This document shows positions 107-8,746 of a DNA stretch of 33,263 nt, piece after piece. A model generated the notes under the pieces. That model saw only the letters and a program-made list of their open reading frames with translations, searched no databases and was not told the DNA's origin. Both the position numbers and the translations under genes were made by a program. Source of the DNA: Xanthobacteraceae bacterium (lineage in GTDB: Bacteria; Pseudomonadota; Alphaproteobacteria; Rhizobiales; Xanthobacteraceae); assembly GCA_020441545.1 (NCBI GenBank), contig JAGRLZ010000044.1:1-33263 (forward strand), read 5' to 3'. Within the stretch, counting starts at the first letter, position 1. Each line of letters begins with the position of its first letter.

Positions 107-1108
107 TCAGAGCCGGATCATCCGCTTGCCGCGATTTTCTCCGGCCAGCAGGCCGATCAGCGCCTGCGGCGTCTTTTCGAGGCCGTCGATCACGTCTTCC
201 AGCACCTTGAGCCGGCCCGACTGCACCCACGACTGCAAATCCGACAGTGCCTGATCGCGCTGCTCCATGTAGTCCATCACGATGAAGCCCTGCATGATGA
301 GGCGCTTGACGACAATCAGCCCGGGCACGCCGCGCGGGCCGGTTTCGGACGGCACGCCGTCATATTGCGAGATCGCGCCGCAGCAGGCGATGCGGCCGTA
401 CAGGTTCATCTGCGGCAGGCAGGCTTCGAGGATGTCGCCGCCGACATTGTCGAAATAGACGTCGATCCCCTTCGGCGCCGCGGCCTTGAGGTCCTTGTAG
501 ACATTGCCGCCCTTGTAGTCGACGGCGGCGTCGAAGCCGAGTTCGGACGTCAGCCAGTTGCACTTGTCGGCGCCGCCCGCGATGCCGACCACGCGGCAAT
601 CCTTGATCTTGGCGATCTGCCCGACGATCGAGCCGACCGATCCCGCCGCAGCCGAGACCACCACGGTTTCGCCTGCCTTGGGCCGGCCGATGTTGAGCAG
701 GCCGAAATACGCCGTCAGGCCCGCGATGCCGTAGATGCTGAGGAGATGGGTCAGCGGCTCGATCCGCGGCATCTTGGCCAGGTGCCTGGCCGGCACGGCG
801 GCATAGTCCTGCCAGCCGGTATCGCCGAAAACAATGTCGCCGGGGGCGAAGCCCGGGTCCTTGGATTCGATCACTTCGCCGATGCCGCCGCCGGCCATCA
901 CGGTATTGGCTTCCACCGCGGAGCGATAGGTCGCGCCATGCATCCAGGCGCGATTTGCGGCGTCGAGGGAAATGTAGCGGACCCGGACCAGAACCTCGCC
1001 GGCCTTGGGCTCGGGAATGGAGGTTTCGGACATCTTGAAGTTGCCGGGCGCCAGCTTGCCGGTCGGCTTTTCGACCAGCAGGATCTGGCGATTGGTTTTG
1101 GATGTCAT
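107..1108 (-). CDS. NADP-dependent MDR-family oxidoreductase (CurA/YncB-like)
   Basis: 333 residues, the normal length for the zinc-free medium-chain reductase group that includes CurA, YncB and leukotriene B4 12-hydroxydehydrogenase. The N-terminal half is a GroES-like fold. The Rossmann half begins near residue 145 with the AAAGSVGS nucleotide loop, followed by a GGADK segment near the second beta strand, as in NADPH-binding members. No structural-zinc cysteine cluster is seen. These cytoplasmic enzymes typically reduce the double bond of alpha,beta-unsaturated ketones or aldehydes; the actual substrate is unknown. The ATG at 1108 has a clean GGAGG about 8 bases upstream, which fixes the start. 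It lies 122 bp behind the Mur-ligase gene on the same strand and has an inverted repeat in its leader, so it is probably its own transcript. Confidence 0.88.
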   Translation of the reverse strand: MTSKTNRQILLVEKPTGKLAPGNFKMSETSIPEPKAGEVLVRVRYISLDAANRAWMHGATYRSAVEANTVMAGGGIGEVIESKDPGFAPGDIVFGDTGWQDYAAVPARHLAKMPRIEPLTHLLSIYGIAGLTAYFGLLNIGRPKAGETVVVSAAAGSVGSIVGQIAKIKDCRVVGIAGGADKCNWLTSELGFDAAVDYKGGNVYKDLKAAAPKGIDVYFDNVGGDILEACLPQMNLYGRIACCGAISQYDGVPSETGPRGVPGLIVVKRLIMQGFIVMDYMEQRDQALSDLQSWVQSGRLKVLEDVIDGLEKTPQALIGLLAGENRGKRMIRL

Positions 1109-1230: not shown

Positions 1231-2547
1231 TCAGAAGAAATTCAATTCGGTCGCGTCCTGTCCATGGACGGTCGCGGCGAACTCGATCGCGACGAACAAT
1301 CCGCCGGCGACGAATATCTTTCGATTGCCCTGGCTGGCGAGCCGGTCGGCGAGCGCGGCCGCCTCGGCAATGGTGGCAGCTTCGCGAATGTCGGCTGCGG
1401 GATGCGTCTGCCGCGCGGCCGCGGCGATGATTTCGGCCGGGGTACCTTTATGATGCGCCGCCGTGCAGATGATCGTCTCGAATGCCGGGGCGAGCAGGCG
1501 CACGATCTCATCGGCCTGCTTGTCATGGGACACGCCCGTGACGAGAATCCAGTCGCCGGCGCCGTAAGCTTCGACAAGCCCGCGCAGCGCCTGGGCGATG
1601 CCGTCGGGCGTATGGCCGACATCGATGACGGTGAGGGGCTGTGGGCGGATCAGTTCGAGCCGCCCCGGCCAGCGTGTCTGACGCAGTCCCGACCGGGTCG
1701 CCTGATCGAGATCGGCGCCCGTGATCGCCGATGTCCGCTCGGCCCACAGCAGGAACAGCGTGGCCGCGACCGCCGCGTTGTTGATCTGGAACGCGCCCGC
1801 GAGTCCGATTTCAAGTGCCGGCAGATGGCGGCCGCCAGTTTGAAGATCGAAGCGCGCGTGACCGGCCGTGACGGTCTCCCGCCCGATCGCAATCTCGTCG
1901 CGGACGAACAGCGCCGAAACGTCGCGGTTGCGATTATAGGCCGCGATATGGGCGCGCAGCGGCCGGCAGTTCTCGCCGTAGACGACGGTGCCGCCGGCGG
2001 CGCAGGCATCGCTCTTGTCGGAGACGATGAAAGCGAGCGAATCGCCGAGCAGGGCCACGTGTTCGTGGTCGACCGATGTCACGCAGGTCAGCGCGGCATT
2101 GACCAGCCGGACCGGATCGTAGCGGCCGCCGATGCCGGCCTCGAAGACGGCGAGCCGGCAATCCATCTCCTGGAAGTACAGGCAGGCCAGCGCGAACTGG
2201 GCCTCGAACGCGCCGAAGCTTTCGTCGGCGAGTTTGCGCGAGACCTCGGCGATGGCCTCGCTCACCCGCGCCATCATCGCCGACAACGGCGCGTCGCCGA
2301 TCGGCTCGCCATCGATCCGGAAGCGCTCGCTGAAGCGATAGAGATGCGGGGATGTGAACAGGCCGGTCCGCAATCCGGCGGCCCGGCCGATGCCGGCGCA
2401 GAAGGCGGCGGTGCTGCCCTTGCCGTTCGAGCCGGTGATGACGATCGAATTCCGCCGCAGGCGCTCGCGGTCGACGCCCAGCACGGCCAGCAGCCGGGTG
2501 AGGCGGGCGAGGCAGACGCCGCGGCCGTATTTGGGCAGGTCAAACAT
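1231..2547 (-). CDS. FolC-like Mur ligase of unknown substrate
   Basis: 438 residues with the full FolC/Mur-ligase layout. The P-loop is GSNGKGST (39-46). TSPHL (65-69) is followed by a FolC-like ERF segment, EAGIGGRYD lies near 137, DHEHVALLGDS is at 160-170, and a lysine in SDKSD (178) sits at the carbamylated-lysine position. The C-terminal domain opens with TRWPGRLEL near 291. Two folate-ligase hallmarks are altered: DATN after GGR is replaced by DPVRL, and DGAHN is replaced by DVGHT (309-313). Family knowledge: such enzymes couple ATP hydrolysis to amide bond formation on an acyl-phosphate. Its start overlaps the end of the ATP-grasp ligase by 8 bp, so the two are translationally coupled. 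I infer a second amide ligase rather than the housekeeping folylpolyglutamate synthase. It would be annotated as FolC by homology alone. Confidence 0.8.
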   Translation of the reverse strand: MFDLPKYGRGVCLARLTRLLAVLGVDRERLRRNSIVITGSNGKGSTAAFCAGIGRAAGLRTGLFTSPHLYRFSERFRIDGEPIGDAPLSAMMARVSEAIAEVSRKLADESFGAFEAQFALACLYFQEMDCRLAVFEAGIGGRYDPVRLVNAALTCVTSVDHEHVALLGDSLAFIVSDKSDACAAGGTVVYGENCRPLRAHIAAYNRNRDVSALFVRDEIAIGRETVTAGHARFDLQTGGRHLPALEIGLAGAFQINNAAVAATLFLLWAERTSAITGADLDQATRSGLRQTRWPGRLELIRPQPLTVIDVGHTPDGIAQALRGLVEAYGAGDWILVTGVSHDKQADEIVRLLAPAFETIICTAAHHKGTPAEIIAAAARQTHPAADIREAATIAEAAALADRLASQGNRKIFVAGGLFVAIEFAATVHGQDATELNFF

Positions 2548-3583
2548 CCAGCAATCCGGTTGCGGCCAGGGTGTGCCGCCAGATGTCGAGGATCAGGTCC
2601 GCGCGATTGATGTCTTCGAGGAAGCGGATCGATGGATTGGCATTGACCTCGATGATGCGCACCGCGTGCGGATCGCCGTCGACATCGGTGAACAGGTCGA
2701 CCGCTCCCGCCCGCAGCCCCAGCGCTGCGACGGCGCGCCGGGCTGAATCGAAAACCGCATCGCGGTTCGGTGGATCGGCGAAGCTCATGCCGCCGCCGGC
2801 GCTGCGGTTCATCCGGCCGGCGATGGCCTGCCGCGTGCCGGCAGCGGGCACCGTGCCGTCGGCATCCTGCTTGCCGGCAACGGCGGGCGAGATGCCGCGG
2901 GATTCCAGGTCCGCGGCGCGGGCGGACATCAGCTCCGGGACGGTGTGAACGCCATCGCCTGCGAGGACGGGCGGGGTCTTGCGCGCCGAATACAGCACGT
3001 CGCCGTCAAGCAGGAAAATGCGGTACTCGTCGCCGGTGACGGCGGGTTGCAGCAGCACGGAATCGTAGACGCGGCTGACCCTGTCGAGGTAACGCGCCAG
3101 CGCGCCGGCTCCCTCCACCGGCTCCGCGAAATCGCCGCGCGAGCCATGCAGCGGCTTGGCAAAGGCGGCGCCGCCCAGGGCATCGAGATAGGCGAGGGCG
3201 TCGGTTCGCTCGTGGCCGGGGGGACGGTGGGCCCGGTGACGCGCGTTCAGGAAAAAATAGTCGCCGCCCAGCGTCGGAAGCCCGGCATGTGCCATGATGC
3301 GGTTGGCGAAGTGCTTGTCCGCGGCGAGCGTGGCCGCGGTGGCGTCGTTCTGCGGGAAGAACGAACAACGGCCGGCGGCAAAGCATCGGCTGCCGGCTTC
3401 CGATCCGATCCTGAAGATCAGTCCGGTGCCGCCATCGAGATCCTCGAAGATGAGGCCGAACGCGGCGCAGGCATACTCGGCGTAGAGCGTGTGGTCGGGA
3501 TAGAAAGCCGGCTTTCGTTTCCGAAGAGCCTGAAGATCCTGCATGGGGCAGTCCGAAAGCCTCAAAGGGCGATGGAGGTTCAT
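2540..3583 (-). CDS. ATP-grasp ligase, cyanophycin-synthetase/RimK-like
   Basis: 347 residues. The ATP-grasp signatures are intact: DK (89-90) before a GLPT turn, FAKPLHGSRGD (141-151) with the ATP-binding lysine and glycine-rich loop, LLQPAVTGDEYRIF (177-190), the loop APD-type segment ending GDGVHTVPEL (209-218), D296, and EVNANPS (312-318) for Mg2+ binding. The GDEYR and GDG-HT segments resemble the ATP-grasp half of cyanophycin synthetase and GshF. The N-terminal domain of about 160 residues typical of CphA is absent; about 85 residues precede the first lysine. It should form a peptide-like bond from a carboxylate, ATP and an amine. The ATG at 3583 is used here; an ATG 13 codons in (Met14), with GAGG further upstream, is an alternative. 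It is first gene of the pair with the FolC-like ligase and is divergent from fpr. Confidence 0.8.
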   Translation of the reverse strand: MNLHRPLRLSDCPMQDLQALRKRKPAFYPDHTLYAEYACAAFGLIFEDLDGGTGLIFRIGSEAGSRCFAAGRCSFFPQNDATAATLAADKHFANRIMAHAGLPTLGGDYFFLNARHRAHRPPGHERTDALAYLDALGGAAFAKPLHGSRGDFAEPVEGAGALARYLDRVSRVYDSVLLQPAVTGDEYRIFLLDGDVLYSARKTPPVLAGDGVHTVPELMSARAADLESRGISPAVAGKQDADGTVPAAGTRQAIAGRMNRSAGGGMSFADPPNRDAVFDSARRAVAALGLRAGAVDLFTDVDGDPHAVRIIEVNANPSIRFLEDINRADLILDIWRHTLAATGLLDV

Positions 3584-3875: not shown

Positions 3876-4649
3876 ATGAGTGCATTCCATCGGGAGAAGG
3901 TTCTCTCCGTTCGTCATTGGACCGATTCGCTTTTCAGCTTCACCGCAACGCGCAGTTCCGGCTTCCGCTTCCTCAACGGGCAGTTCGCCATGATCGGCCT
4001 CGAGATCGAGGGCCGTCCCTTGCTGCGCGCCTACAGCATGGCGAGCGCCAATCACGAGGAGTCGCTGGAGTTCTTCAGCATCAAGGTCGCGGACGGGCCG
4101 CTGACCTCCCGGCTGCAGAAGATTCAGGAAGGCGACACCATTCTGGTCGGCCGCAAGGCGACCGGGACGTTGATCGCCGACAACCTCATTCCCGGCGAGC
4201 GGCTGCTGCTGCTGTCGACCGGCACCGGGCTCGCGCCGTTCGCCAGCCTCATCAAGGATCCGGACATCTACGAGCGCTACGAGCGCATCGTGCTGGTGCA
4301 TGGATGCCGTCAGGTCTCGGAACTGGCCTATGGCGAGCAACTGGTGGCCCGGCTGCGCGATGACGACCTGTTCGGCGAACTGCTCGCGGACAAGCTGGTT
4401 TACTATCCTACCGTGACGCGCGAGCCGTTCCGCAATCGCGGACGCATCACCGACCTGATTACATCGAACCGGCTGTTCGACGACATTTGCCAGTCGCCAC
4501 TGGATATCGCGACCGACCGCATCATGATGTGCGGCAGCCCGGCGATGCTCGAGGAATTGCGCGCCATGTTCATGTCGCGCGACTTCGCGGAAGGCAACCA
4601 CAGCGAACCCGGCCATTTCGTCATCGAGAAGGCTTTCGTGGAGCGCTGA
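3876..4649 (+). CDS. fpr: Ferredoxin/flavodoxin-NADP reductase
   Basis: 257 residues, the usual length for the bacterial Fpr subclass. It exchanges electrons between NADPH and ferredoxin or flavodoxin using FAD. Visible features are the FAD-binding RAYS motif (51-54), the segment FFSIKVADGPLTSRL near 67-80, the NADP-binding STGTGLAPF (114-122), and the C-terminal AFVER, characteristic of subclass-I bacterial Fprs where the tail stacks over the flavin. The frame is open for 60 codons further upstream to 3696, but that stretch has no FNR similarity, so the ATG at 3876 is chosen; the AGGA upstream is weak. A strong terminator follows at 4678. The next gene downstream encodes an FMN/Fe-S oxidoreductase that may use the same electron carrier. 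Confidence 0.95.
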   Translation: MSAFHREKVLSVRHWTDSLFSFTATRSSGFRFLNGQFAMIGLEIEGRPLLRAYSMASANHEESLEFFSIKVADGPLTSRLQKIQEGDTILVGRKATGTLIADNLIPGERLLLLSTGTGLAPFASLIKDPDIYERYERIVLVHGCRQVSELAYGEQLVARLRDDDLFGELLADKLVYYPTVTREPFRNRGRITDLITSNRLFDDICQSPLDIATDRIMMCGSPAMLEELRAMFMSRDFAEGNHSEPGHFVIEKAFVER

Positions 4650-4865: not shown

Positions 4866-6491
4866 ATGGAAACCCTGATGCTTCCGTTTTCGCCACGCTT
4901 CATCGTGCTGACGATCTGCGGCGTGATTACCCTGCTGCTGATCGGCCTCGGCCTTGCGGACCACAAGATCATCAACCTGATCGTCGTTCCGGTGCTGATC
5001 TTCGGCGGACTGACGCTTCTCGGCATTCGCGATCTCGTCCAGAAGGACCACGCGGTCCTGCGCAACTACCCGATCTCCGCGCATCTGCGGTTCCTGCTCG
5101 AGGAGATTCGCCCGGAGATGCGGCAGTATTTCTTCGAAGGCGAAAAGGACGGCATGCCGTTCAGCCGCGACACCCGCGCGGTGGTCTATCAGCGCGCCAA
5201 GATGGTGCTCGACAAGCGGCCGTTCGGCACGCAGGAAAACGTTTACGGCATCGGCTTCGAATGGATGAATCATTCGGTCGCGCCGAAGCCGCTGGCGCGC
5301 GAGAAATTCCGCATCACCGTCGGCGGGCCCGATTGCGCCAGGCCCTATTCGGCCTCGGTGTTCAACATCTCGGCGATGAGTTTCGGCGCGCTCAGCCCGA
5401 ACGCGATCCGCGCGCTGAACGCCGGGGCCAGGAAGGGCAGCTTCGCGCACGACACCGGCGAGGGCGGCGTCAGTCCGTATCACCGCGAGAACGGCGGCGA
5501 CCTGATCTGGCAGATCGGCTCCGGCTATTTCGGCTGCCGCAATCCCGACGGTTCGTTCAATCCCGATGCCTTCGCGAAGGTTGCGTCCGACGACCAGGTC
5601 AAGATGATCGAGTTGAAGGTCAGCCAGGGCGCCAAGCCGGGGCATGGCGGCGTGCTTCCCGCCGCCAAGGTTTCGGCCGAGATATCGCGGATCAGGGGCG
5701 TGACGATCGGCGAGGATTGTATCTCGCCGTCGACCCACAAGGCGTATTCGACGCCGATCCAGATGATGCAGTTCCTCGGCGAGATGCGGCGGCTGTCGGG
5801 CGGCAAGCCCGTGGGCTTCAAGCTCTGCGTCGGCCATCGCTGGGAGTTCCTCGCGATCTGCAAGGCCATGCTGGAAACCGGCATCTATCCCGATTTCATC
5901 GTCGTCGACGGCAAGGAAGGCGGCACCGGCGCGGCGCCGCTGGAATTCATGGATCATCTCGGCATGCCGATGCGCGAGGGCGTCAATTTCGTCCACAACG
6001 CGCTGGTCGGCATCGATGCGCGCGACCGCATCAAGATCGGCGCCGCCGGCAAGATCGCGACCGCGTTCGACATGGCGCGCGCGATGGCGCTGGGCGCGGA
6101 CTGGTGCAATTCGGCGCGTGGATTCATGATGTCGCTGGGCTGCATCCAGTCGCTGAGCTGCCATACCGACCGCTGCCCGACCGGCGTCGCGACGCAGGAC
6201 CCCGGACGCAGTCGCGCGCTGGTGGTGCCGCACAAGATGGAGCGCGTCTACAACTATCATCACGCGACCTTGCAGGCGCTCGCCGAATTGCTCGCCGCCG
6301 CCGGCCTCGAGCATCCGCGCGACATCCGGCCGGTGCATTTCTCGCATCGCCTGTCGAGCACGCAGGTAACGTCGTTCGCGCGGCTCTATCCGCAGCTTCG
6401 CCCGGGTGAACTTCTCACCGGCACCGACGAGCAGCGTTTCCGCGAGCCGTGGTCGATCGCGCGGGCGGACACGTTCGCTCCGGCGCTGTAG
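4866..6491 (+). CDS. Membrane-anchored FMN/3Fe-4S glutamate-synthase-family protein
   Basis: 541 residues. Two hydrophobic helices (about 12-30 and 35-54) form an N-terminal membrane anchor; the rest is the FMN-binding synthase domain of GltB. Seen in the sequence are FNISAMSFGALS near 180, a DTGEGGVSPYH loop near 198, KVSQGAKPGHGGVLP near 257, GKEGGTGAAP near 349-358, and the 3Fe-4S motif C426-x5-C432-x4-C437 inside a CPTGVATQDP segment, all as in GltS. The class-II glutaminase domain and the GXGXG domain are both absent, so it cannot make ammonia from glutamine by itself. Related proteins are annotated as FMN-binding glutamate synthase family; their reaction is unsettled. Being next to fpr suggests (inference) a ferredoxin-type electron donor. 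The start has GAGGAG very close upstream. Confidence 0.88.
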   Translation: METLMLPFSPRFIVLTICGVITLLLIGLGLADHKIINLIVVPVLIFGGLTLLGIRDLVQKDHAVLRNYPISAHLRFLLEEIRPEMRQYFFEGEKDGMPFSRDTRAVVYQRAKMVLDKRPFGTQENVYGIGFEWMNHSVAPKPLAREKFRITVGGPDCARPYSASVFNISAMSFGALSPNAIRALNAGARKGSFAHDTGEGGVSPYHRENGGDLIWQIGSGYFGCRNPDGSFNPDAFAKVASDDQVKMIELKVSQGAKPGHGGVLPAAKVSAEISRIRGVTIGEDCISPSTHKAYSTPIQMMQFLGEMRRLSGGKPVGFKLCVGHRWEFLAICKAMLETGIYPDFIVVDGKEGGTGAAPLEFMDHLGMPMREGVNFVHNALVGIDARDRIKIGAAGKIATAFDMARAMALGADWCNSARGFMMSLGCIQSLSCHTDRCPTGVATQDPGRSRALVVPHKMERVYNYHHATLQALAELLAAAGLEHPRDIRPVHFSHRLSSTQVTSFARLYPQLRPGELLTGTDEQRFREPWSIARADTFAPAL

Positions 6492-6664: not shown

Positions 6665-8746
6665 TCAAAACTCGCCGTGCAGCCGGGCCGAGAAGATCGA
6701 GACGGGGCCACGGTCGGCGTTGTAGGCCGGATTGGCGACGAACTGATAGTCCGCGGTCATCGTCAGCTGCTTGTTGATGGCATAGGCGTAGTAGGCCTCG
6801 AGGATGCGCTCTTTCCGATAATTCAGCCGGCCGTCGCCGACCAGCACGCCGAGCCCGCCGGCGGCGATGAAGTCGCGATGGTCGCGCGAGAGCGCATTGA
6901 CGGCGCCGCCGATTCCGATCACGTCGTCCGGCCGTCCCCAGCGGGTGCCCTTGATCGAGGTGCCGAGCGCGAGGCTGGCATCGATGTCGGTGAACGACAT
7001 GATCTCGGTCTTGCCGTCGTTCCAGCTCCAGCGGCCGAACAGGCCGATGTCGTCGCTGAGCGCCTGTTCGAGGCTGAGCACGTAGCCATATTTGACGCGC
7101 CCGCGCCGGGTCCGCGCGATATCGAGATTGAGTGCCGGGGCGTTCAGCGTCTCGCGATAGCTTCCCGAATAGGCGTTGCTGAGCCAGCCGATGGCGCGCA
7201 GCCTGCCGGGTTGCGAGAACAGGTTGAAGCGGGTCTCAAGCTCGACGACGTATTGCCCGCGCCGCGGCAGCCGCATGTCGAAGTTGTTGGCGTTGGGCTC
7301 GTCGCCGACCAGGAAGTAGCCGCCCCGAAGCGCCCACCGTTTCTGATTGAGTTCGGCGGTGGCGCCGTAGGTCGCCCCCAGCCGGTTGGCCGCGTAGTCG
7401 AACGCGCCCGGCGCCCACAGCGCCCAGTTCATGAAATCCTTGCGCGCGTCCTTGGCATAGGCATTGCCGTCGAACACGTCGGTGACGGCGAATTTGCCGA
7501 ACTGGAGCGTGAGCCGGGCGATGTCCTCCTTGCCGGCGAGCTGGCTCGGCCCGCTCTCCAGCTTCTCCTGCTCGCCGCCGAAGCCGAAGGTCTGGCGCAT
7601 GAACAGCCGCGATGTGCTGTAATGTGGATAGGGGAAGTTGGATTTCTGCGCTTCGCCGCTGGAGAATCCGGCGAGGCCGACGGTGTCGCTGAGGCCGAAG
7701 CCCTGCAGCAGTTCCGGGTTGAAATACACCTCGCCGCCGTCCCATAGCCGGGCGTTGAGATACAGGCTGTTGCTCCAGGTCTGCTGGGTCTGCGGTGCGG
7801 GCGTCAGGCTGTTGGTCCCGGTATAGGGCGCGCGGAACGCCGGATAGCCCTGCTGGATGTATGTCGTCTGGCCGTGGATTTCCCAGCGGCCGGATTCCGG
7901 ATCGGTCAGAGTAGCGAGGGCGGGGACGTCGCCGTCGGCGCCGAACCTGCGGCTGAGCCCGAGGCGCAGCGACTGGACGTCGAAGTTCGAGCGATATTGC
8001 GCGCCGGAGCCGAACCGGATGTCGGCCTGGTTGAACCGGCTGTAGAGATATTCGACGCGCGCCGTCCAATGCGGGGCGAAGGCGTATTCGATGCCGGCAC
8101 CGGCCGCCCAGCCGGGCCGGATGCCGAGGCGTTTCTCGACCGCGCCCGAAGGGAGCACATTGAAGAAGCGTTCGCCGGCCCAGGCGAACCCGGCGGTCGC
8201 GTAAGCAAGCCACGGCCCGGCGGTGTAGCCGATCCGCGCCCGCGCGGTGCCGGAATAATCGAGCTTCTCGGTCACCGTCGATGCGGCGGTGCCCAGCGCC
8301 GAGATGGTCGAGTTGGAATCGATCGAGCTCGGAAAGGAGAAATCGGCCTCGATGCCGAGCAGCAGGCCGGACGGCATCACGATATTGGTGCCGGCCTGAA
8401 TGCCGCCGATCATGCCGCCGAAGGTGTGGCTGCCGCGGACGGGCGGAACGCCCGACAGCGCGGCCTGGGATCCGCCAAGGCCGAAGCCGGCATGGACACC
8501 CAGATAGGGGCCGGCCCAACCCGACCGAATGTATGGAGGTGCCTTGCGATAGAAATCCGTGCCCAAATCGGCCGCGCGTGCCTGCCCGGCAAGGACGCAG
8601 GCCCCGAAAGCGACCGCGACGATCCTGGCTGATTTGCCTATGGAACCTGCCGGCAGGCGCCAGGACATCCCCAGCCTGCAACCAGCGCCTTGTTTGGCAA
8701 CGCCTTGTTTGGCAACGCCTTGTTTGAACGGAGTTTTTCGCTGCAC
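6665..8746 (-). CDS. Two-barrel outer-membrane porin (Omp25/31-like plus OprB-like)
   Basis: 693 residues from a GTG at 8746. An ATG at 8668 (Met27) is an equally good start: it would begin the signal peptide directly and leave the KQGVA repeats (about 8-20) untranslated. The signal peptide is hydrophobic at 41-54 with predicted cleavage after ARA (56-58). Residues about 59-280 look like the small 8-stranded Omp25/Omp31 barrel (GWAGPYLGVHAGFGLGG, later ARIGYTAGPWLAYATAGFAW and WTARVEYLYSRF). Residues about 295-693 look like an OprB carbohydrate-selective porin and end in F, as outer-membrane barrels do. OprB porins pass sugars and other small neutral solutes. A palindrome-bearing promoter lies at 8786-8814. 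The creatininase gene is upstream on the same strand. Confidence 0.85.
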   Translation of the reverse strand: MQRKTPFKQGVAKQGVAKQGAGCRLGMSWRLPAGSIGKSARIVAVAFGACVLAGQARAADLGTDFYRKAPPYIRSGWAGPYLGVHAGFGLGGSQAALSGVPPVRGSHTFGGMIGGIQAGTNIVMPSGLLLGIEADFSFPSSIDSNSTISALGTAASTVTEKLDYSGTARARIGYTAGPWLAYATAGFAWAGERFFNVLPSGAVEKRLGIRPGWAAGAGIEYAFAPHWTARVEYLYSRFNQADIRFGSGAQYRSNFDVQSLRLGLSRRFGADGDVPALATLTDPESGRWEIHGQTTYIQQGYPAFRAPYTGTNSLTPAPQTQQTWSNSLYLNARLWDGGEVYFNPELLQGFGLSDTVGLAGFSSGEAQKSNFPYPHYSTSRLFMRQTFGFGGEQEKLESGPSQLAGKEDIARLTLQFGKFAVTDVFDGNAYAKDARKDFMNWALWAPGAFDYAANRLGATYGATAELNQKRWALRGGYFLVGDEPNANNFDMRLPRRGQYVVELETRFNLFSQPGRLRAIGWLSNAYSGSYRETLNAPALNLDIARTRRGRVKYGYVLSLEQALSDDIGLFGRWSWNDGKTEIMSFTDIDASLALGTSIKGTRWGRPDDVIGIGGAVNALSRDHRDFIAAGGLGVLVGDGRLNYRKERILEAYYAYAINKQLTMTADYQFVANPAYNADRGPVSIFSARLHGEF
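8686..8730. repeat. 15-bp tandem triplication in the porin 5' end
   Basis: Three 15-bp units at 8686, 8701 and 8716 read cgccttgtttggcaa on the plus strand; the third differs in its last four bases. If translated from the GTG at 8746 they encode KQGVA repeats before the signal peptide. If translation starts at 8668 they form part of the leader. Confidence 0.85.

Follow-up and report, generated by a model that had tools for sequence, protein, structure and literature searches.

An overlapping gene pair for a CphA/GshF-type ATP-grasp ligase and a FolC-derived Mur ligase, conserved among Alphaproteobacteria

Two overlapping ligase genes were analyzed in a 33,263-nucleotide stretch of DNA from a Xanthobacteraceae bacterium (GenBank assembly GCA_020441545.1, contig JAGRLZ010000044.1; contig C138 of genome G000 in our set), here called the window. 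Both genes lie on the minus strand. The first, which we named AG1 (for ATP-grasp), encodes a CphA/GshF-type ATP-grasp ligase at positions 2540-3583. Its open reading frame has 347 amino acids, the likelier gene being 2540-3544 with 334 amino acids. Since close homologues begin at Met14 of the longer frame, AG1 residues are numbered by the 334-residue form. The second, FsL (FolC-sister ligase), encodes a FolC-derived Mur ligase of 438 amino acids at 1231-2547 and shares 8 bp (2540-2547) with AG1. A sequence-only reading of the window had described this arrangement, and the genes, their overlap and the AG1 motifs GDEYR, GDGVHT and EVNANPS were found as it described them. The pairing, the gene overlap, a separate FolC-derived clade, conserved catalytic residues and a common chromosomal slot are all observed. 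Our tentative reading, to which we give somewhat less than an even chance, is that the pair would be a split two-ligase module whose two CphA-like sites act in turn on one small acceptor and give it a short structure of amide-linked amino acids, the product likely being neither cyanophycin nor ordinary folate.

The pair persists as a unit while its surroundings change, also in distant Alphaproteobacteria. Among 135 pattern matches in genome contigs, 47 loci were confirmed with the AG1 profile, and in 45 of them FsL adjoined AG1 on the same strand, directly downstream; the two loci without it came from a Methylococcaceae genome (L049) and an Anaerolineales genome (L051). A sample of 119 genomes of the family contained FsL in 14 genomes, with AG1 adjacent in all 14, and one further genome had a weak AG1 relative (101.5 bits). 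In the class sample (289 genomes) FsL was present in four genomes, three of them outside the family of the window, again always next to AG1 (4/4). The order sample (297 genomes) gave ATP-grasp matches in 15 genomes, 4 of them above 540 bits. For the phylum (398 genomes), 13 matches to the FsL profile were obtained at E≤1e-36; four reached the FsL level (738-797 bits), and the other nine (128-140 bits) fell among canonical FolC in the tree. The junction between the genes was read by script in 51 of 56 loci, with start codons picked by motif and some contigs counted twice: the overlap was 8 bp in 27, 1 bp in 17, 11 bp in two and 4 bp in one, two junctions abutted and two had an 8-bp gap. In G040 the pair adjoins sugar-type ABC-permease genes (nearest model UgpE, below its cut-off), and in locus L048 the gene order is trpB-trpA-accD-folC-AG1-FsL. 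The sequence-only reading had proposed that the two genes work together, and these counts support a conserved two-ligase pair.

AG1 gave no Pfam match above cut-off. Its best NCBIfam match was the G-domain part of the cyanophycin synthetase model TIGR02068 (model positions 202-450 of 862) with 54.7 bits, far from the cut-off of 850. A sequence search of the PDB returned CphA at the top (E 4.6e-11) and GshF next. The AlphaFold2 model (pLDDT 88.3) had CphA1 (7wae, E 9.8e-17) and GshF (3ln6, 1.7e-16) as its closest fold matches, with Ddl structures also among them. The sequence-only reading had noted CphA-like motifs in AG1 and the lack of the CphA N-terminal domain; profile and fold support a CphA/GshF-type ligase that lacks this domain. 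The EYR-F motif is shared with GshF; unlike GshF, AG1 has no GshA half, and its Mur partner has no counterpart there. The RimK family shares the ATP-grasp fold, but AG1 scored only 23.3 bits against TIGR00768 (cut-off 143.4). At E≤1e-3 the AG1 profile matched 1324 of 8000 scored candidates.

The active site was compared through an alignment to TeCphA1 (7wac), which reproduces the residue numbers given in PMC9427784. In CphA1, Arg309 holds the C-terminal carboxylate of the chain, and the incoming aspartate is held or flanked by Asn394, Arg323, Arg458 and Ser396. Lys220, Lys261, Arg309, Asn394, Asp431 and Glu450 were retained in all 44 close AG1 sequences (K77, K130, R175, N246, D283 and E299 in the window), and Ser396 and Arg458 in 43 of 44 (S248 and R307). 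Arg323 is replaced by Lys in 44/44 (K189), Gly456 by Ser in 44/44, and His267 by Arg in 43 sequences (R136), the remaining one having His. With Arg323 to Lys counted as retained, the close set keeps 9 of the 11 CphA1 residues that serve ATP, the chain end or the incoming Asp; in the distant pairs the equivalent of Arg458 is lost. The window and each of the three distant pair members share the P-loop GSRG. The four solo and four AG2 relatives compared lack it (AG2 is the alternative ligase described below), and among them only L071, a gene at a contig end, has Arg there (GARG).

FsL is a FolC relative by score and by fold. It lies above the subfamily cut-off of the folC model TIGR01499 (246.8 versus 162.65 bits), and its match to the M part of TIGR02068 reaches 25.5 bits. 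The structural model (pLDDT 92.8) is nearest to Mycobacterium tuberculosis FPGS (2vos, E 1.2e-31, TM 0.87), with MurC (E 1.2e-16) well behind. Because the folC model gives 246.8 bits against about 26 for CphA and the nearest fold is FPGS, the Mur half is FolC-derived and not CphA-derived. The cyanophycin synthetase likeness put forward in the sequence-only reading therefore stands for the two catalytic types, ATP-grasp and Mur, and is otherwise an analogy: AG1 and FsL are two separate chains without the N domain, and AG1 departs from CphA1 at His267 and Gly456. No protein above the TIGR02068 cut-off was found in the 16 pair-bearing genomes; G040 and G958 each contain another G-domain-like stretch (229 and 219 bits).

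Despite its origin, FsL is separate from canonical FolC. In an unrooted tree, 17 FsL rows formed one clade against 39 canonical FolC rows with 100/100 support and a stem of 1.86 changes per site. A wider unrooted tree of 56 rows, including 20 of about 80 newly listed FsL-like proteins, again split with 100/100 into an FsL side (32) and a canonical side (24). The window protein reads GSNGKGS at the P-loop, DPVR at the place of DATN and DVGHT at the place of DGAHN; the sequence-only reading had noted that DATN and DGAHN are absent. Motifs of FsLs were compared with those of 31 canonical FolCs from Alphaproteobacteria. Where canonical FolC has GTNGKGS, DATN and mostly DG[GA]HN, the FsL clade has GSNGKGS, D[PVS][VTA]R and DV[GCA]H[TS], and Gly replaces Ser in the GSLY motif. 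At least eight swaps are clade-wide between the 17 and 39 rows: 40 T to S, 112 T/S to G, 147 N to R, 162 D to E, 177 E to D, 180 G to D, 313 N to T/S and 416 S to G. At position 40 all FolC rows have T and all FsL rows S; at position 147, N in 38/39 FolC rows is opposed to R in 17/17 FsL rows, and at position 313, N in 39/39 to T/S in 17/17. Common to both sets are G39, N41-G44, F114, E115, D144, H163, K178, N257, R296, D309, H312 and K343, and FsL also resembles FolC/FPGS in length and in the P-loop pattern GxNGKGS. A lysine of the K178 type is carbamylated in Mur ligases. Exceptions occur in the wider family: among 120 proteins listed, five FsL-like ones (P0318-P0322) retain GTNGKGS, and P0295 and P0320 retain a GS motif near the C terminus.

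Some of the clade-wide swaps fall in the P-loop and some in the pocket. By motif, position 112 would correspond to Ser150 of the M. tuberculosis enzyme, an equivalence of our own; according to PMC6455211 this serine belongs to a helix bundle contacting a dihydropteroate analogue and is mutated in PAS resistance. The change of Ser416 to Gly was considered as proof of a non-glutamate substrate, and that argument was weakened. Gly416 aligns with Ser412 of L. casei; the model in PMC10861534 names Ser473 of the M. tuberculosis enzyme, but the coordinates of the alignment put Gly416 near chain position 459, leaving the equivalence with Ser473 unconfirmed. Equivalog scores were dropped as a test of FolC membership. 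FsL scores 159.7 with NF047860 (cut-off 700) and 119 with NF008101 (cut-off 360), and the canonical FolC of L048 is also below both cut-offs (181.8 and 190.5).

A canonical folC is encoded elsewhere in the window genome (G000; contig C55, 346.4 bits), and G040 and L048 also have a further FolC match besides FsL. Together with the tree, in which the Mur protein lies outside the folate ligases, this supports FsL being a relative of FolC but not the housekeeping FolC of the genome. The sequence-only reading had named as its refutation a Mur protein within the true folate ligases and a genome lacking a second folC; the result was the reverse on both counts. The FsL profile matched 4162 of 7998 scored candidates at E≤1e-3, a count that takes in ordinary FolC. 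The match counts for both profiles and the recurrence of the two genes as neighbors speak against a chance finding.

Proteins joining FolC-type and FsL-type domains were also found. A search with the AG1 and FsL proteins of L070 joined into one sequence returned 166 proteins, and none of the 120 listed matched the AG1 or AG2 profile, so that no AG1-FsL fusion was seen among them. Three proteins, P0246 (864 aa), P0247 (880) and P0248 (956), have a FolC-type N-half and an FsL-type C-half. In the wider tree, the three C-halves grouped on one side with all FsL rows and the three N-halves on the other with the canonical rows. Only the N-half of P0246 falls among canonical FolCs, and its FolC domain carries the canonical motifs GTNGKGS, DATN, DGAHN and GSLF; the N-halves of P0247 and P0248 branch outside the canonical rows. 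FsL probably extends beyond Alphaproteobacteria, because P0272, an FsL protein, is named by its source as coming from a Blastocatellia metagenome-assembled genome. P0204, an FsL of the window type, and the fusion P0246 may lie on one contig, as both show a longest contig of 422436.

The pair occupies a recurrent chromosomal slot in the family. With the pair on the plus strand, the order is OprB (+), GltB-like (-), in some loci Fpr (-), AG1 (+), FsL (+), in some loci SBP (-) and SDF (-), and ADH (+). In the window, the GltB-like gene (4866-6491, plus strand) encodes an FMN-type glutamate-synthase-domain protein (PF01645, 282.3 bits) and is divergent from the pair, as is the Fpr gene for a ferredoxin-NADP reductase-like protein (3876-4649, plus strand; NF008178, 144.9 bits, cut-off 390). 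On the other side lies ADH, an NADP-dependent oxidoreductase gene (107-1108, minus strand), whose nearest model is curcumin reductase, below its cut-off. By domain-library matches, none of the named genes flanking the pair in the window is folate-related. Of 44 close pair loci, 37 have the GltB-like gene, which forms the steady border of the slot; the contigs of the other seven end before it. The sequence-only reading had named a lack of conserved neighbours in relatives as a refutation, and the neighbours are conserved. Fpr is common but not constant, and ADH marks the downstream edge. The nearest models for SBP and SDF are a glutamate/aspartate binding protein and a DctA/GltP symporter, respectively. 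GltB-like genes with at least 77% identity had AG1 or AG2 within about 2.5 kb in 12 of 12 cases, and those with 52-60% identity had neither within about 6.6-9 kb (0/4); because of these four remote genes, the association with GltB-like is a lineage feature. In L005 (9173-9796), and likewise in L006, L008 and L017, a PAS_5-domain gene separates the pair from the GltB-like side.

In all six examined genomes of genus g225 without the pair (G501, G538, G323, G428, G555 and G398), a different ATP-grasp gene, AG2, takes the same place in the same orientation; in G398 the ADH side lies past the contig end. The best named DNA match at the slot, with 80-86% identity, was Bradyrhizobium for five of these genomes and Tardiphaga followed by Bradyrhizobium for G555. 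AG2 also adjoins the GltB-like gene in two genomes of other genera, G936 (with ADH) and G954 (ADH not found), and none of the slot flanks was found in G995, the ninth AG2 genome. Genus g536 has both states, the pair in G974 and G1013 and AG2 in G936 and G995. The AG2 loci are L139 (8497-9456), L140 (6504-7304), L141 (5455-6288), L142 (5854-6657), L143 (5839-6633), L144 (86-892), L148 and L150. A segment of about 50 residues present in L139 is missing from the forms L140-L144; the L140 form is nearest to the RimK family (61 bits, below the cut-off of 143.4) and the L139 form to CphA (45 bits). AG1 is a remote homologue of AG2 (hhalign probability 98.4%), and a branch with 100/100 support separates the two. 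In the family sample, AG2 was present in 6 and the pair in 14 of the 119 genomes and both in none, a zero overlap that by a hand estimate is expected about half the time at these counts; the replacement of the pair by AG2 is therefore argued from the slot position. We infer that the two kinds of slot occupant would carry out an identical or cognate step. In G247, tandem ATP-grasp genes (L076, 9184-11378), one of the wider AG1 family and one AG2-like, form another two-ligase arrangement.

The substrate-level chemistry that we infer for the two enzymes from their residues and neighbours would run in two steps. AG1 would take an acceptor ending in a glutamyl or peptidyl group, phosphorylate its terminal alpha-carboxylate, held by Arg175 (equivalent to CphA1 Arg309), and link this carboxylate to an acidic amino acid, through the amino group of the latter, with Asn246, Lys189 and Arg307 (CphA1 Asn394, Arg323 and Arg458) as its binding residues. 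FsL, with its conserved P-loop, Lys178, Asp309 and His312, would then phosphorylate a second carboxylate and add a different, probably non-glutamate amino acid. The setting may be glutamate/aspartate metabolism, as the slot lies next to a GltB-like gene, in some loci also next to acidic-amino-acid transport genes, and is alternatively occupied by the single RimK-like AG2. A wider proposal, which we hold to be rather doubtful, is that AG1-FsL is a widespread two-ligase machine finishing one shared metabolite, that the swap of pair and AG2 in the slot yields the same or a cognate product, and that an entire branch of the FolC family (FsL, in other lineages also fused to a FolC-type domain), whose members databases list as folate synthases, would serve an amide tail of a non-standard kind.

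Several observations weigh against the two-ligase module proposed here. In the class sample, an ATP-grasp relative at E≤1e-20 was present in nine genomes, five of them without FsL, although in one of the five (G067) the gene is at a contig end. In the order sample, 11 of the 15 ATP-grasp matches were weak (91-119 bits), and FsL was beside none of the ten loci read. The transport genes lie outside the pair operon and occur in 16 of 44 close pair loci, some of which end early. The equivalent of CphA1 Arg458 is Ala in all three distant pair members, so the assignment of an acidic amino acid may fail family-wide. Finally, two physical connections with a FolC that bears canonical motifs, by adjacency in L048 and by fusion in P0246, fit a folate role better. 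Owing to these links, the strongest rival is a tailoring of folate tails: once canonical FolC has acted, the two enzymes of the pair would extend folylpolyglutamate with unusual residues, either alpha-linked or non-glutamate. The FolC descent of FsL and the retention of F114, E115 and D144 in 17/17 rows are consistent with this role. However, three positions that canonical FolC conserves are changed in FsL (T/S112 to G, N147 to R and S416 to G), two of the three fusions have N-halves outside the canonical rows, and folate genes are missing from the named neighbours in the window. We consider folate tailoring unlikely. The earlier statement that folate is an unlikely substrate was based on the loss of canonical motifs; the accD-folC adjacency of one distant pair and the three FolC-FsL fusions would fit a folate-linked role.

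The remaining explanations are less probable still. Ddl and MurF chemistry allows a division of labor in which a dipeptide is made and then ligated; AG1 would accordingly join two amino acids and FsL would attach the dipeptide to an acceptor. The gene order and the Ddl structures among the fold matches suit such a scheme, which is nevertheless improbable, as AG1 is nearer to CphA1 and GshF than to Ddl and retains the arginine that in CphA1 holds the C-terminal carboxylate of the chain. Repeated action of both enzymes could yield a storage polymer and make the pair a true split analogue of cyanophycin synthetase, with the same two catalytic types in genomes where CphA was not found above cut-off. 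The pair lacks the CphA N domain, which PMC9427784 describes as a proposed polymer anchor, and we hold a polymer to be very improbable. Nothing was found that points to the poly-amino-acid-like polymer suggested by the sequence-only reading. Least probable of all, and hardly credible, is a redundant second FolC with an incidental ATP-grasp neighbor: FsL does pass TIGR01499 and bears folate names in databases, but the pair is kept across distant lineages, FsL forms its own clade and a further FolC is present in G000, G040 and L048.

None of the titles and abstracts listed in literature searches describes the AG1-FsL pair. The name FolC2 in PMC1971073 denotes a CofE-type chlamydial protein unrelated to FsL. 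Many proteins of the FsL clade are named dihydrofolate/folylpolyglutamate synthase in sequence databases, and folate reconstructions for Bradyrhizobium, Tardiphaga, Rhodopseudomonas and others therefore probably include a second FolC that is false. Should the pair produce a metabolite of its own, closely related strains with the pair or with AG2 would offer a ready genetic comparison for finding the compound, and the FolC-FsL fusions hint at the same step in other lineages.

The neighbors of solo ATP-grasp relatives gave no functional hint. On viral contigs, no relatives of the pair were found. On plasmids, none of the ten AG-relative records was among the 30 listed of 105 FsL-relative records; the annotations of the ten read gshAB, cyanophycin synthetase, CapA or hypothetical, and the 30 all have less than 60% identity and are mostly folate genes by annotation. 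One plasmid, pTi6.2 of Rhizobium rhododendri (NZ_CP117269.1, 115836-116885), carries a 1050-bp AG-like ATP-grasp gene that is annotated as cyanophycin synthetase although it is much shorter than CphA, and the 13 kb examined there contain no annotated FolC-type gene. Farther along the window, a 693-residue open reading frame at 6665-8746 on the minus strand has matches to an OMP beta-barrel (residues 74-268) and to an OprB porin (312-693). It apparently places two outer-membrane barrels on a single chain, and matches of more than 600 amino acids occur in several related loci.

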